NCBI GenBank assembly: GCA_903821875.1 | Contig: CAIJMU010000063.1 | Coordinates: forward strand, 1-52,851 | Length of the DNA: 52,851 nucleotides | From: an uncultured Spirochaetota bacterium | Lineage (GTDB): Bacteria > Spirochaetota > Spirochaetia > Treponematales > Rectinemataceae | Direction: 5' to 3' | Part shown: positions 44,009 to 49,281 of the stretch, in pieces | Layout: each line of letters opens with the position of its first letter | Numbering within the stretch: the stretch's first letter is position 1 | The notes under the pieces: model-generated | What the model saw: only the letters and a program-made list of their open reading frames with translations | Told to the model about the DNA's origin: nothing | Databases searched by the model: none | Position numbers and translations under genes: made by a program

Positions 44009-44882
44009 TCGGTCGACAACTGCAGTTGCCTCGGGGATCGTCCGTAAATGTCCACGGCAACTGCTGCCGGATATATTCTTAATTAGGGCAAAGTCGTCAC
44101 GGGCATCGCGGCGCGAGTTACGACGCGAAGGTCGCCGGAAAATCCTCGGTCGTAGTGATGTATGTCGTACTAAATACGACAAACTGTGCGCCGGAGAGGG
44201 CCAGGATGACGGCGGCCAGCCATTCCTCGCGACCGATGGGCGAGCGCCCGAGATTCGTATGCTGGAGCACAGCGCTCCCGTTGAGCACGGGCTGGTCTCG
44301 CCTCGAAGCTTGGTGCGCCAGTTTCACACGGAGCGCTTTAATGAGTGCCTCCTCATCCAGGGAAAAGCAGCCATGAAGCGGGCCTGCGTTCGCAAGCCTC
44401 TGGCGGAGAGTGGCAAGTTCCTCCTGGAGGAGGAAATACGCGGAAAATTCACCGAGCTCGAGGAGTTTCCCAATAGACGGGATTCGGCGCTGAGGCTCGG
44501 GCGTGCATCTTTCCGAGCTTCTTCCTGTGGTGCGGGCATATGGAAGAGATAGGAGTCGAAGCTGCCATTGCGCCAGACGCGACCAGCGCTTTTGAAGACC
44601 GCGAGAGCCACAAGGCCATCAGCTTCGGGGGTCTCCACTCCGCCAAGATCGCACTCGTCAGCGAGGACTTCCATGACATCGAGGTCCTTCAACGCTCGGG
44701 GGACTGGGGGGCCTTCATCCGGACTGAGAGGTCCCGGAACCCTCGAAAGCAGGGTCAGGCTTGTCAACTTTCGATATTCCGATAGCGCAGATTCCTTGGA
44801 ACTGAAGGCTTGCCAATCAGCTTCAATTTTGGCCTTTGACAATAATCTGACTGAGGCCTAGGTTAAATCCTTGGAGGCAATC
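44009..44882. other. Long intergenic stretch without a confident gene
   Basis: This 874-base region has no reading frame with recognisable protein features on either strand. Several frames of 60-170 codons are open on both strands, as expected of high-GC DNA, and none has a clear ribosome site or family motif. A perfect inverted repeat TGTCGTA-CTAAA-TACGACA lies at 44163-44181, and CAACTGCAGTTG at 44017-44028 is a 12-bp palindrome just after the methyltransferase stop. It could hold a decayed gene, but I cannot name it. Confidence 0.4.
44163..44181. repeat. Inverted repeat TGTCGTA-N5-TACGACA
   Basis: Seven-base perfect arms around a 5-base spacer in non-coding DNA. It could be an operator or a hairpin; the neighbouring sequence gives no further clue. 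Confidence 0.4.
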
Positions 44883-45329
44883 ATGGGAGACACGAGCAAA
44901 ATTGGAATCATCATCTGCGACCGCTACCGGACCTGTGCGGGAGGGAAGTGCTTCCGCGCGCTCAGGGCGAGGGAGGGAGCCTTTTCTGCCTACCACGGCG
45001 TAGAGGTGGAACTCGTTGGATTTACGAGTTGCGGGGGCTGTCCCGGCGGAGCAATCGAGTACGCGGGCGAGGAAATGGTCAAGAACGGCGCGACTGTCAT
45101 TCACCTCGCGACCGGCCTCTTGGTTGGCTATCCTCCTTGCCCCAGCATCGACTACTTCTCCCGTTTCATGGAAGCGCGCTACAAGGTTCGAGTAATCGTG
45201 GGAACCCACCCCATCCCCGAAAAGTACCGCTTGATCCACGGAAAGCTCGGGACCTGGTCGGAGCCCTGCTGGAAAGTCCTCCTCGAGCCGACCCTGGCCG
45301 ATGAGGCGACAAGAAAGGCTTACGATTAG
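44883..45329 (+). CDS. CGGC-domain protein
   Basis: A 148-residue protein from the ATG at 44883 with GGAGG upstream. It opens MGDTSKIGIIICDRYRTCAGGKCFRALRARE and has FTSCGGCPGG near residue 47, the four-residue CGGC motif that defines this family, then PPCPSIDYF near 87 and a conserved HPIPEKY. The family is thought to bind metals or act in redox chemistry; its function is not established. It has seven cysteines in all. It lies in a redox island just before a possible structured non-coding region. Confidence 0.88.
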   Translation: MGDTSKIGIIICDRYRTCAGGKCFRALRAREGAFSAYHGVEVELVGFTSCGGCPGGAIEYAGEEMVKNGATVIHLATGLLVGYPPCPSIDYFSRFMEARYKVRVIVGTHPIPEKYRLIHGKLGTWSEPCWKVLLEPTLADEATRKAYD

Positions 45330-45739: not shown

Positions 45740-46624
45740 TCAGCGCCAGGTTCCGGCTATGTACTTGACCGAGGGATCGGCTGCGAGCACCTGCGAGGAA
45801 CCGTCGAAATTACGCACGCTCTTCCATCCGAGCATTTCGGACATGATCCACCACCAGGTCGATGCGGCGACGCCGGTGTCGCAGTAGACGATGGTCTCGG
45901 CCTTGGGATCGAGGCCAAGTCTGGCCGCGATGGATTCGAGGTCGGCCTTGGGCTTGAAAAAGCCATCGGCGGTGGCGATCCAGGTACTGGGCAGGGGCCA
46001 GGCGCTTGCGTAGTGGCCGAACTGGGCGGTGGTAGCTGACTTGGAGACGCCGAAGTATGTATCGTAGGTCCGCGCATCGACAATCTGGGCCTTCTTGGCG
46101 GCCATGACATAGGCCTTGTCCGCAAAGAATGCAGGATTGAACTTTACGACAAAGCTTCCTGACTTTGCTGCGACAGGGTCGGTCTGGACCGGCTTGCTGG
46201 CCTTGGTCCAGGCAGCGTAGCCGCCGTCGAGGATGGCGACATTTTCGAGACCTGCGTACTTCAGGGTCCAGCCCACGCGGGTAGCCCAGGCGAGGCGAGC
46301 GCTGGTGTCGGTATCGACTACGACAACCTGGGAGTCGGCGTTTATGCCGGCTGCCTGGAGTACGTCGGTAAGGTCATCGGCCTGGGGTACCTCGTTGAGG
46401 ACATCGCCGGCCTTCACATAGACGCTGGCGCCGATGACATTGACCGCGCCGGTGATGTGGCCTGCCTTGTAGTCCTCGACCTTGCGCATGTCCACGACAA
46501 CGAGCCTGGGATTGGCAAGGTTGGCTTCGAGCCAGGTGGCGTCAACGACCGAGGCAATGTCCCGGGCCATCGCCATCGGGGCGAGGACTGAGAGACCGAT
46601 GAGGGCAATGAGGAACTTCTTCAC
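45740..46624 (-). CDS. Secreted thiosulfate sulfurtransferase (rhodanese, two domains)
   Basis: A 294-residue exported protein with a signal peptide (MKKFLIALIGLSVLAPMAMA). Two rhodanese domains follow. The first has LVVVDMRKVEDYKAGHITGAVNV and no catalytic Cys (VVVVDTDTSARLAW at that site). The second has AQIVDARTYDTYFG and the catalytic loop IVYCDTGVAAS with the active Cys near residue 248. It would move sulfane sulfur, or a selenium analogue, in the periplasm. It starts 11 bases after the multiheme cytochrome gene and is followed by a terminator, so the two form one operon. Rhodanese-cytochrome pairs also occur in selenite/tellurite reduction loci of Geobacter-like bacteria. Confidence 0.92.
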   Translation of the reverse strand: MKKFLIALIGLSVLAPMAMARDIASVVDATWLEANLANPRLVVVDMRKVEDYKAGHITGAVNVIGASVYVKAGDVLNEVPQADDLTDVLQAAGINADSQVVVVDTDTSARLAWATRVGWTLKYAGLENVAILDGGYAAWTKASKPVQTDPVAAKSGSFVVKFNPAFFADKAYVMAAKKAQIVDARTYDTYFGVSKSATTAQFGHYASAWPLPSTWIATADGFFKPKADLESIAARLGLDPKAETIVYCDTGVAASTWWWIMSEMLGWKSVRNFDGSSQVLAADPSVKYIAGTWR

Positions 46625-46635
46625 GCTACACTCTC

Positions 46636-47856
46636 CTACTTGTCAAACTTGAAAATGAGGGCCTGGTTGGATTTTGACCCGCCGACCGGCAGGTCCGATT
46701 CTTTGAGGAAATGAGCCTGCGCTACGTGGCAGGCAGCGCAGTCGCGGGTGCGGTCGGTCCGTTTCTTGGTGTTGTGAGGAACTGCATCCCAGTAGTTGGG
46801 CAGGGAGTCGTAATTGGACTGGGCAATTCCTGCCGGGGCGAAGGTATCCCGGACGGTGGGGATGTGCCTGAGCGTGGTGAGCTGGCCAGCCTTGCGTGGG
46901 TTGTCGCCGAGGATGAGACCGGGGACCGAAGTCGCCCCCGCGCCAAGGTGGCAACCGTAGCAATTGCGATATTCGCTTGAGGAGTGGCAGGCCGAGCAGC
47001 TCGCCTTGCCGGCGTGCGTCGCATGGGCCGTTTTCGCCGCATCGGTCTTCGCCGCTTCCGGTTTGTGGCAACCGACGCAACTAGGCTTTTCGGCCAGGGC
47101 CTTGCGTCCAGGGACGGAGGCCTCCGGACCATGCAGCTCGGCAGGCTTGTGGCAGTCGGTGCAGGTCATTCCCTTTTGATAATGCACGTCGGCATTCCCG
47201 CCATATTCCCCGGTGAACTCGGGGTAGACCCGGCCATTATGGCAAACTGCGCAGGTCTTGGCGTCGTCCTTCCGCACGAAGCGGTGCCCTTGGATGAGGC
47301 CCGTGCTGATGCCGGAAACTGTCGGTCCCTTGACGTGGCAGTCGCCGCAGGAGGCATGGCAGGAGTTGCAGGATTGGACAAAGACCTTGCCGTCGAAGGC
47401 CTTGATGTCCGTCGCGGACAGGCGTGGCCGCACTCCGTTCTTCATCCCGACAGTGGTGAAGTGGAGGGACTTCGAGTAATTGGTCGCGATATCGCCGTGG
47501 CAGGATCCACAGAGATCGGTGTCGTCGGAGGGGCGCTTGACCAGCCCGACGTGGGCAAGGTCGCGGGTGGCGGCGTTCTCGTTTCCGCTGTGGCAGGTGA
47601 CGCAACCTTGGCTGAGATGCACATCGCTTTCGGTCAGGGACGCGTCAATGACGTATCCCATGTATAACTCTTCCGCCCGAACCGGGGGAGGTGGACCCGC
47701 TCAGCCCTCCGCCTCGGAGGCGGCGACCGAGGGTGGGATGAACAGGGCTTGTATCCTGGCGGGATTTGTATGACAGGCGACACAGCTGGATTGGGCCGCA
47801 TGGGCAGCTATCCCGATAAGGAGTGTCGCTGCAAGGGCAAGCGAATGTTTGATCAT
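46636..47856 (-). CDS. Exported multiheme c-type cytochrome with in-frame TGA (possible selenocysteine)
   Basis: From the ATG at 47856, which has GGAGG six bases upstream, a signal peptide (MIKHSLALAATLLIGIAAHA) and one heme motif (CVACH) are followed at codon 52 by TGA (47703-47701). The same frame continues without another stop for 354 codons and carries ten more CxxCH motifs, among them CVTCH, CGSCH, CNSCH, CGDCH and CYGCH, giving 11 in total. An internal ATG at 47661 could restart translation but would have no signal peptide, so heme attachment would fail. A stem with loop GGUUC starts eight bases after the TGA, in the position of a bacterial SECIS. The alternatives are a true nonsense mutation or sequencing error. 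The rhodanese gene follows by 11 bases. Confidence 0.75.
47668..47693 (-). promoter_or_regulatory. SECIS-like hairpin just after the in-frame TGA
   Basis: Counting from the base after the TGA, bases 8-17 pair with 23-33: CCC with GGG next to the loop, then C-G, C-G and U-A beyond a bulged C, with two outer pairs between mismatches. The loop is GGUUC, starting at base 18. Bacterial SelB-binding hairpins lie within about 16-37 bases of the UGA and carry a G early in the loop. The C-rich sequence makes a chance stem possible. Confidence 0.4.
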
Positions 47857-47888
47857 TCAAGACCTCCGGTAACTAAGGGCATATGACC

Positions 47889-48354: not shown

Positions 48355-49281
48355 ATGCGCAATCGACCATCTGTCCTCATCATCGTGTCGCTCGGAATGT
48401 TTGCCATGATCCCTGCCTGTACGCCATCCAAACACGCCTCCGCCGCTGGGAAAAAGACCATCGTCGTGACCTATTCCGTGCTCGGTTCCATCGTGCATGA
48501 GCTCGTCGGCGACCTGGCTACGGTGAGGGTCATGATACCGAATGGACTGGATGTCCATGAATGGGAGCCCTCGGCCAAGGACATCGAGAGCCTTACGAAG
48601 GCGGATCTTGTCGTCGAGAACGGGCTCGGGCTCGAAGGGGGCATGGGCAAGGCCCTCGACCAGGCGCGCTCAGCCGGGGTGAAGTTTTTCACCGTATCAA
48701 ACTGCATCACTATTCGCAGGGTCGGCGCGGGCGAAGGCATTCCCTCGGGTGACCCGGACCAGGCTGTCGGCGCAGAGGACCCCCACCTCTGGACAGATCC
48801 GGTCGCGGTCAAGGCGATGGTCGTGGCGCTGACGCCGGAGTTGAAGACGGAGCTCGGACTCGATGTCTCGGCGCGGGCAGCTGATCTGGAGAAGAGGCTC
48901 GATGGCCTCGACAGGGAGATAGGCACCGCCGTCGCAGCCCTAAGGCCTGGACAGCGGAAGCTGGTCACAGGCCACGAGTCCCTCGGCTACTTTGCCCAGC
49001 GCTACGGCTTCACGCTCGTCGGCGCGGTCGTTCCGAGCCTCACGACCGAGGCAGAGAGCTCCGCCGCCGACTTCGTCGCTCTCAAGAGGCTCATCGCGGA
49101 GAACCAGGTGAAGGTTATTTTTACAGAGATCGGGACACCGGCCAGGACCGTCGAGGCGCTCGCCAAGGAGTCCGGCATCACGGCCGTCCCCCTAAAGACG
49201 CACTCTATGCCGGCTGACGGGTCTTACCTCACCTTCGCGCGCGATCTTTCCGCCGTCATCATCGGCGCACTCAGGCAATGA
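48355..49281 (+). CDS. znuA: Zinc/manganese ABC transporter substrate-binding lipoprotein
   Basis: A 308-residue cluster 9 binding protein with a lipoprotein signal (IVSLGMFAMIPAC). Metal ligands of the family are visible: His in LDVHEWEPSAKD near residue 64, His in AEDPHLWTDPVAV near 142 and His in TGHESLGYFAQRYGF near 204. The long His-rich loop seen in many ZnuA proteins is absent, so the specificity for zinc over manganese is not certain; regulation by a Cys-rich regulator favours zinc. GGGAGG precedes the ATG, and the next gene overlaps its stop by four bases. Confidence 0.9.
   Translation: MRNRPSVLIIVSLGMFAMIPACTPSKHASAAGKKTIVVTYSVLGSIVHELVGDLATVRVMIPNGLDVHEWEPSAKDIESLTKADLVVENGLGLEGGMGKALDQARSAGVKFFTVSNCITIRRVGAGEGIPSGDPDQAVGAEDPHLWTDPVAVKAMVVALTPELKTELGLDVSARAADLEKRLDGLDREIGTAVAALRPGQRKLVTGHESLGYFAQRYGFTLVGAVVPSLTTEAESSAADFVALKRLIAENQVKVIFTEIGTPARTVEALAKESGITAVPLKTHSMPADGSYLTFARDLSAVIIGALRQ

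Follow-up and report, generated by a model that had tools for sequence, protein, structure and literature searches.

A probable new family of selenocysteine-containing 11-heme cytochromes, encoded with a rhodanese in Spirochaetota and other lineages

A gene for a multiheme c-type cytochrome that is interrupted by a single in-frame TGA raises the question of whether that codon marks a defect, the boundary between two genes or a position at which selenocysteine (Sec) is inserted. Such a gene lies on the reverse strand (46636-47856) of the window, the whole stretch of 52,851 nucleotides of an uncultured Spirochaetota bacterium that was analysed. Two ORFs share one frame here, with the TGA at 47703-47701 as the sole interruption: the upstream ORF (47856..47701; ATG start, 51 aa) encodes a signal peptide and the heme motif CVACH, and the downstream ORF, ending at 46636, carries heme motifs 2-11. 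Reading through the TGA gives a 406-aa product with 11 CXXCH motifs, which consists of the predicted signal peptide MIKHSLALAATLLIGIAAHA (47797-47856, reverse strand, read from the translation; the first helix of the AlphaFold model spans residues 2-18), heme motif 1 upstream of the Sec codon (CVACH, residues 25-29; 47770-47784, reverse strand; invariant in 72 of 72 sequences), a linker ending in EGU, AGPPPPVRAEELY and ten further CXXCH motifs. The upstream ATG is preceded by the ribosome binding site GGAGGT (47862-47867, reverse strand, read from the sequence) at a spacing of 5 nt. The cytochrome is single-copy in the source genome, and this copy has one internal TGA. It forms codon 52 (47701-47703, reverse strand) and falls in a Gly/Pro-rich linker that joins hemes 1 and 2. 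No Cys is paired with it there, as one would be in a CxxU or UxxC arrangement, a point that counts against the Sec reading. The sequence-only reading had reported one in-frame TGA dividing the signal peptide and heme motif 1 from motifs 2-11, as well as a good ribosome site at the upstream start, and both claims held.

The best overall explanation is that the gene is intact and belongs to a new selenoprotein family with Sec at UGA codon 52, which is considered very likely (probability approximately 0.93). That the cytochrome is a selenoprotein is held with slightly greater confidence still; this rests on the comparison of many genomes and there is no protein-level proof. The comparison supports Sec at the site, a SECIS element, exchange with Cys, the presence of sel genes, linkage to a rhodanese and, in spirochaetes, linkage to sel genes.

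A homologue scan of 84,980 genomes yielded 80 loci. TGA was found in the codon-52 column of 71 of the 73 close homologues covering the site (46-65% identity, the window's gene counted), where the surrounding motif is GEGUAGAPPPVRAEE (family motif GEGU-A/G-G). With distant members of other classes and phyla included, approximately 80 homologues share a TGA in this column. Since homologues at 65 to ~30% identity from several phyla retain it, chance conservation can be excluded. Within the phylum of the source genome a family member occurs in 11 of 393 genomes, and all eleven, distant members included, possess the internal TGA. In another phylum (centred on L092) members were identified in 10 of 379 genomes; at the codon that aligns with the TGA, seven of them have TGA as well and the other three encode Cys. 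The Cys forms read GGGGCGG (L112) and GECCGG (L114 and L117), and His occupies the codon-52 position in L090. On a tree built without the columns of the site, these states need four changes and Cys appears in two lineages among TGA rows, with the caveat that some branches near the Cys rows are long and their joins unsure. In L087 and L088 the TGA motif is out of frame with the rest of the gene, probably through assembly error. The two exceptions among the close homologues (L083 and L086) are paralogues without an equivalent residue, whose genomes also hold a TGA copy (L056, L021). In these Sec-less 11-heme paralogues the next gene encodes a multiheme protein with membrane helices, resembling a cytochrome b fusion; they may represent a subfamily with a different role.

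A bSECIS-type hairpin (47672-47689, reverse strand; RNAfold) follows the UGA. It possesses a one-bulge stem and an apical loop GUU (47682-47680) that starts 18 nt after the UGA, and its folding energy is -8.3 kcal/mol. A hairpin 8-33 bases after the TGA with the loop GGUUC had been claimed earlier, which held in part: the hairpin is present, with the stem (47689-47672) and the GUU loop slightly different. Published bSECIS criteria (PMC13188914) call for a G at loop position 1 or 2, a UGA-to-loop distance of 16-37 nt and an MFE of -7.5 or lower. The spacing was relaxed to at least 14 nt for the hairpin test; nevertheless, the matches at TGA sites lay at 17-20 nt. A qualifying hairpin was found at 75 of 79 TGA sites (65/69 close and 10/10 deep homologues), compared with 88 of 679 control positions (13%). 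Relative to synonymous-codon shuffles, the mean folding z was -1.75 for 69 homologues against -0.12 for 1296 control segments; the window's hairpin taken alone is not clearly stronger than its shuffles (z -0.53). Wobble bases under the hairpin are near-frozen in 68 aligned sequences at T15 (65/68), G27 (68/68) and G30 (68/68), numbering the T of TGA as 1, and positions 9, 12, 36 and 48 are free to vary. Wobble entropy falls to 0.41 bits at codon 56 and 0.11 bits at codon 61, against ~1.7 across most of the gene. Compensatory stem changes were seen in L043 (a U-A pair, 18T-29A) and in L040, L046 and L065 (19G-28C), where two residues change together (PPPVRA to PPAVRP). Among deep members, L089, L105 and L107 have the GUU loop closed by unrelated stems. 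In the Cys homologue L112, from a genome (G429) in which no tRNA-Sec was detected, a strong hairpin lies 15 nt downstream of the Cys codon; this could be a relic SECIS or a chance occurrence of the kind seen at 13% of control positions.

The machinery for selenocysteine insertion was identified in the source genome. It encodes tRNA-Sec (68.6 bits; ARAGORN, TCA), SelA (462.9 bits, cut-off 267.9) and SelB (246.6 bits, cut-off 242.25) in one cluster, and SelD (388.6 bits, cut-off 125) as part of a NifS-SelD fusion. This fusion, a single 741-aa ORF (L132:2407-4632, contig C140) in which SelD is joined to a NifS/IscS-type cysteine desulfurase, may be a built-in selenium donor. Near selA/selB lies a selenoprotein gene of the GrdB type (glycine/sarcosine reductase; TIGR01918, 472 bits) with an in-frame TGA of its own (UGTC); this gene, one for an alpha subunit and a thioredoxin-reductase-like gene (L131:5720-9562, contig C124) adjoin selC-selA-selB. 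tRNA-Sec scored above the gathering score in all 36 tested homologue genomes and SelB was clear in approximately 33, leaving three without a clear SelB. Within the phylum of the source genome, tRNA-Sec was present in 11 of 11 carriers of the cytochrome compared with 5 of 20 listed non-carriers (Fisher p 7e-5). In the L092-centred phylum it was present in six of the seven TGA carriers and undetected in two of the three Cys carriers. No tRNA-Sec was found in the TGA carrier G686; genomes lacking a clear SelB or tRNA-Sec are possibly incomplete drafts. The sequence-based criteria for a bacterial selenoprotein, namely a UGA conserved in distant homologues, Cys homologues, a bSECIS and selA/selB/selC/selD, are all fulfilled. 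Cys or TGA at codon 52 across homologues, a conserved hairpin after each TGA and the four sel genes were also the checks proposed by the sequence-only reading, which took the TGA as selenocysteine between hemes 1 and 2. All were favourable (TGA in ~80 homologues, Cys in three genomes, the hairpin at 75/79 sites, all four genes found), and neither outcome that it had named as refuting, no conserved residue at the position or no sel genes, was obtained.

An exported two-domain rhodanese (45740-46624, reverse strand; Pfam PF00581, 3.7e-28) starts 11 nt downstream of the cytochrome, and the two genes likely form one operon. A rhodanese was identified in 57 of 68 homologous TGA loci, mostly directly downstream, and also beside deep-branching members, so that the earlier claim that the cytochrome is encoded with a rhodanese held; the association is real and deep. 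Convergent with the rhodanese gene, a CGGC-domain protein (PF08821) is encoded at 44871-45329 (forward strand) of the window. In spirochaetes the cytochrome-rhodanese pair occurs with ResB/CcsA cytochrome-maturation genes, and in several of them within ~1-6 kb of selC-selA-selB. A SelD-like gene is also near the pair in L123-L125, with NifS-like, TusA and YedE-like genes in between in L125. As the cytochrome adjoins selC-selA-selB there, it is suggested that it is perhaps one reason why spirochaetes retain selenocysteine. On the contigs of the source genome itself, no co-location of the cytochrome with sel genes was found. At Smithella-type loci the cytochrome carries a fused triheme module, and genes for NrfD and an Fe-S subunit lie upstream of it. 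In seven such loci of Syntrophaceae/Smithella type (L053, L062, L063, L068, L075, L077 and L085), NrfD, the Fe-S subunit, the triheme-fused Sec cytochrome and the rhodanese constitute one operon. This operon is inferred to encode a quinol-linked complex, no description of which was found in the literature searched.

In the proposed mechanism, SelA, SelB, tRNA-Sec and SelD would decode UGA 52 as selenocysteine, directed by the hairpin with its loop 17-20 nt downstream. The product would then be exported, gain 11 c-type hemes and act together with the exported rhodanese; at some Syntrophaceae-type loci, quinol electrons could arrive via the adjacent NrfD/Fe-S pair. The function remains a matter of inference. 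In an alignment of 72 sequences the 11 CXXCH motifs are essentially invariant, nine non-motif His residues are invariant (71-72/72) and M230 is present in 70/72. If all 11 hemes are assumed to be six-coordinate, there are 22 axial sites. The 11 CXXCH motifs and nine invariant His account for all but two of these, and the conserved candidates for the remaining pair are M230 and residue 52, be it Sec, Cys or His. Sec, Cys and His are each able to bind heme iron. In TsdA and SoxAX, a single Cys serves both as heme ligand and as nucleophile towards thiosulfate (PMC6879331). The ligand count and this precedent are the basis for proposing that the cytochrome may be a periplasmic oxidoreductase (reductase or oxidase) for a sulfur or selenium compound, a proposal that is as likely to fail as to hold, and that Sec52 would be its reactive chalcogen, perhaps as distal axial ligand of one heme, which is more tentative again. 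The heme-ligand idea is without structural support, as the AlphaFold model (mean pLDDT 71.6) contains no hemes and its confidence around the Sec (residues 44-58) is below 50. Foldseek/VIA searches with this model gave no usable fold match, and a sequence profile searched against the PDB gave local heme-motif matches only. A bolder reading, which is no more than possible, is that of a multiheme enzyme with His/Sec ligation of a c-type heme (itself inferred), in which Sec would attack a sulfur or selenium compound as nucleophile; in spirochaetes this enzyme, encoded beside the selenocysteine genes along with a rhodanese, would possibly supply the cell with reduced selenium.

Several other explanations of the locus were weighed. 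A lone stop within an otherwise open frame has the look of a pseudogene or of a sequencing or assembly error, the TGA being a nonsense mutation or a wrong base. This is practically ruled out, as some 80 independent genomes share the TGA at 65 to 30% protein identity, purifying selection acts on both sides of it and the wobble bases just downstream are frozen. The mechanical ORF list, with its two ORFs, would suit two genes, one for a short monoheme peptide and another for a separate 10-heme protein starting at ATG 47661. Yet few codons in the family are as well conserved as those separating the TGA from ATG 47661 (AGPPPPVRAEELY), and the three homologues with Cys in place of UGA have a single open frame. 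Attachment of c-type hemes requires a signal peptide, which a product starting at 47661 would lack, and the two-gene model can be all but dismissed. The frame would likewise be preserved if UGA were decoded by other means, either under a UGA=Trp code or by programmed read-through with a near-cognate tRNA. Against this, Trp was seen at the site in no homologue, the exchange being between Sec and Cys (and His); carriers have tRNA-Sec, the hairpin geometry is of the SelB type, and UGA serves as a normal stop in the same window, where the stop of a znuA-like gene at 49281 overlaps the following ATG. Decoding other than as Sec is therefore hardly tenable.

A different kind of objection accepts the Sec and disputes its role: it could be a mobile surface nucleophile, for example a redox switch or a site to which the rhodanese passes sulfane sulfur or selenium, and not a heme ligand. 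In favour of this are the Gly/Pro-rich linker with its low model confidence, the constancy of the rhodanese partner and the TusA, NifS-like and YedE-like genes adjoining in L125. The His in L090 and the axial-ligand count suit a ligand better; neither is decisive, and the surface role has slightly less than an even chance of being correct.

With regard to novelty, no model of NCBIfam release 20.0 came near its cut-off for the cytochrome, and a 2026 catalogue of 119 selenoprotein families (PMC13188914) lists three that are heme-related, none of the 11-heme kind. No such family was found in the open-access literature searched, although some members might already carry a computed annotation in RefSeq. 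The 11-heme Sec cytochrome is thus likely a new family, distinct from ExtKL (see below) and in no selenoprotein list checked. It adds a widespread selenoprotein family with members in Spirochaetota, Geobacter/Desulfuromonadales, Syntrophaceae, Bacillota and other lineages, the genes of which are split in two by gene callers. Here Sec occurs in a redox protein with 11 hemes and has no Cys to pair with, which opens the idea of a Sec-ligated heme to direct testing.

Among known systems, ExtKL (NF040886), a Sec-containing multiheme cytochrome of the Geobacter ext selenite/tellurite cluster (PMC5877670), is likewise a c-type multiheme selenoprotein, and its cluster also has a rhodanese (ExtH) and other cytochromes. 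In contrast to the window's cytochrome, with 11 hemes and Sec between hemes 1 and 2, ExtKL has five hemes and its Sec follows them in a separate C-terminal stretch (GHSIPDGUPTPN). The N-terminal part of the window's protein scores 10.1 bits against NF040886 and does not meet its cut-off of 250. Profiles for ExtN, ExtM and ExtO (NF040967, NF040943 and NF040968) match the window's protein weakly and only locally, across several heme motifs (E 1e-7 to 6e-5); their scores of ~31, 21 and 31 bits fail the cut-offs for membership (200, 800 and 200, respectively). Other heme-related selenoproteins with CXXCH (PMC13188914) are the GSU2204 family (NF041027), which gave no match to the window's cytochrome, and the Sec form of the tetrathionate reductase-type octaheme cytochrome (TIGR04315), membership of which is not met (9 bits for the N-terminal part, cut-off 375; 11 hemes, not 8). 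TsdA and SoxAX differ in having few hemes and Cys instead of Sec, with no sequence relation shown to the window's cytochrome; by analogy, the likeness would lie in a heme-bound chalcogen that doubles as nucleophile towards thiosulfate or tetrathionate.
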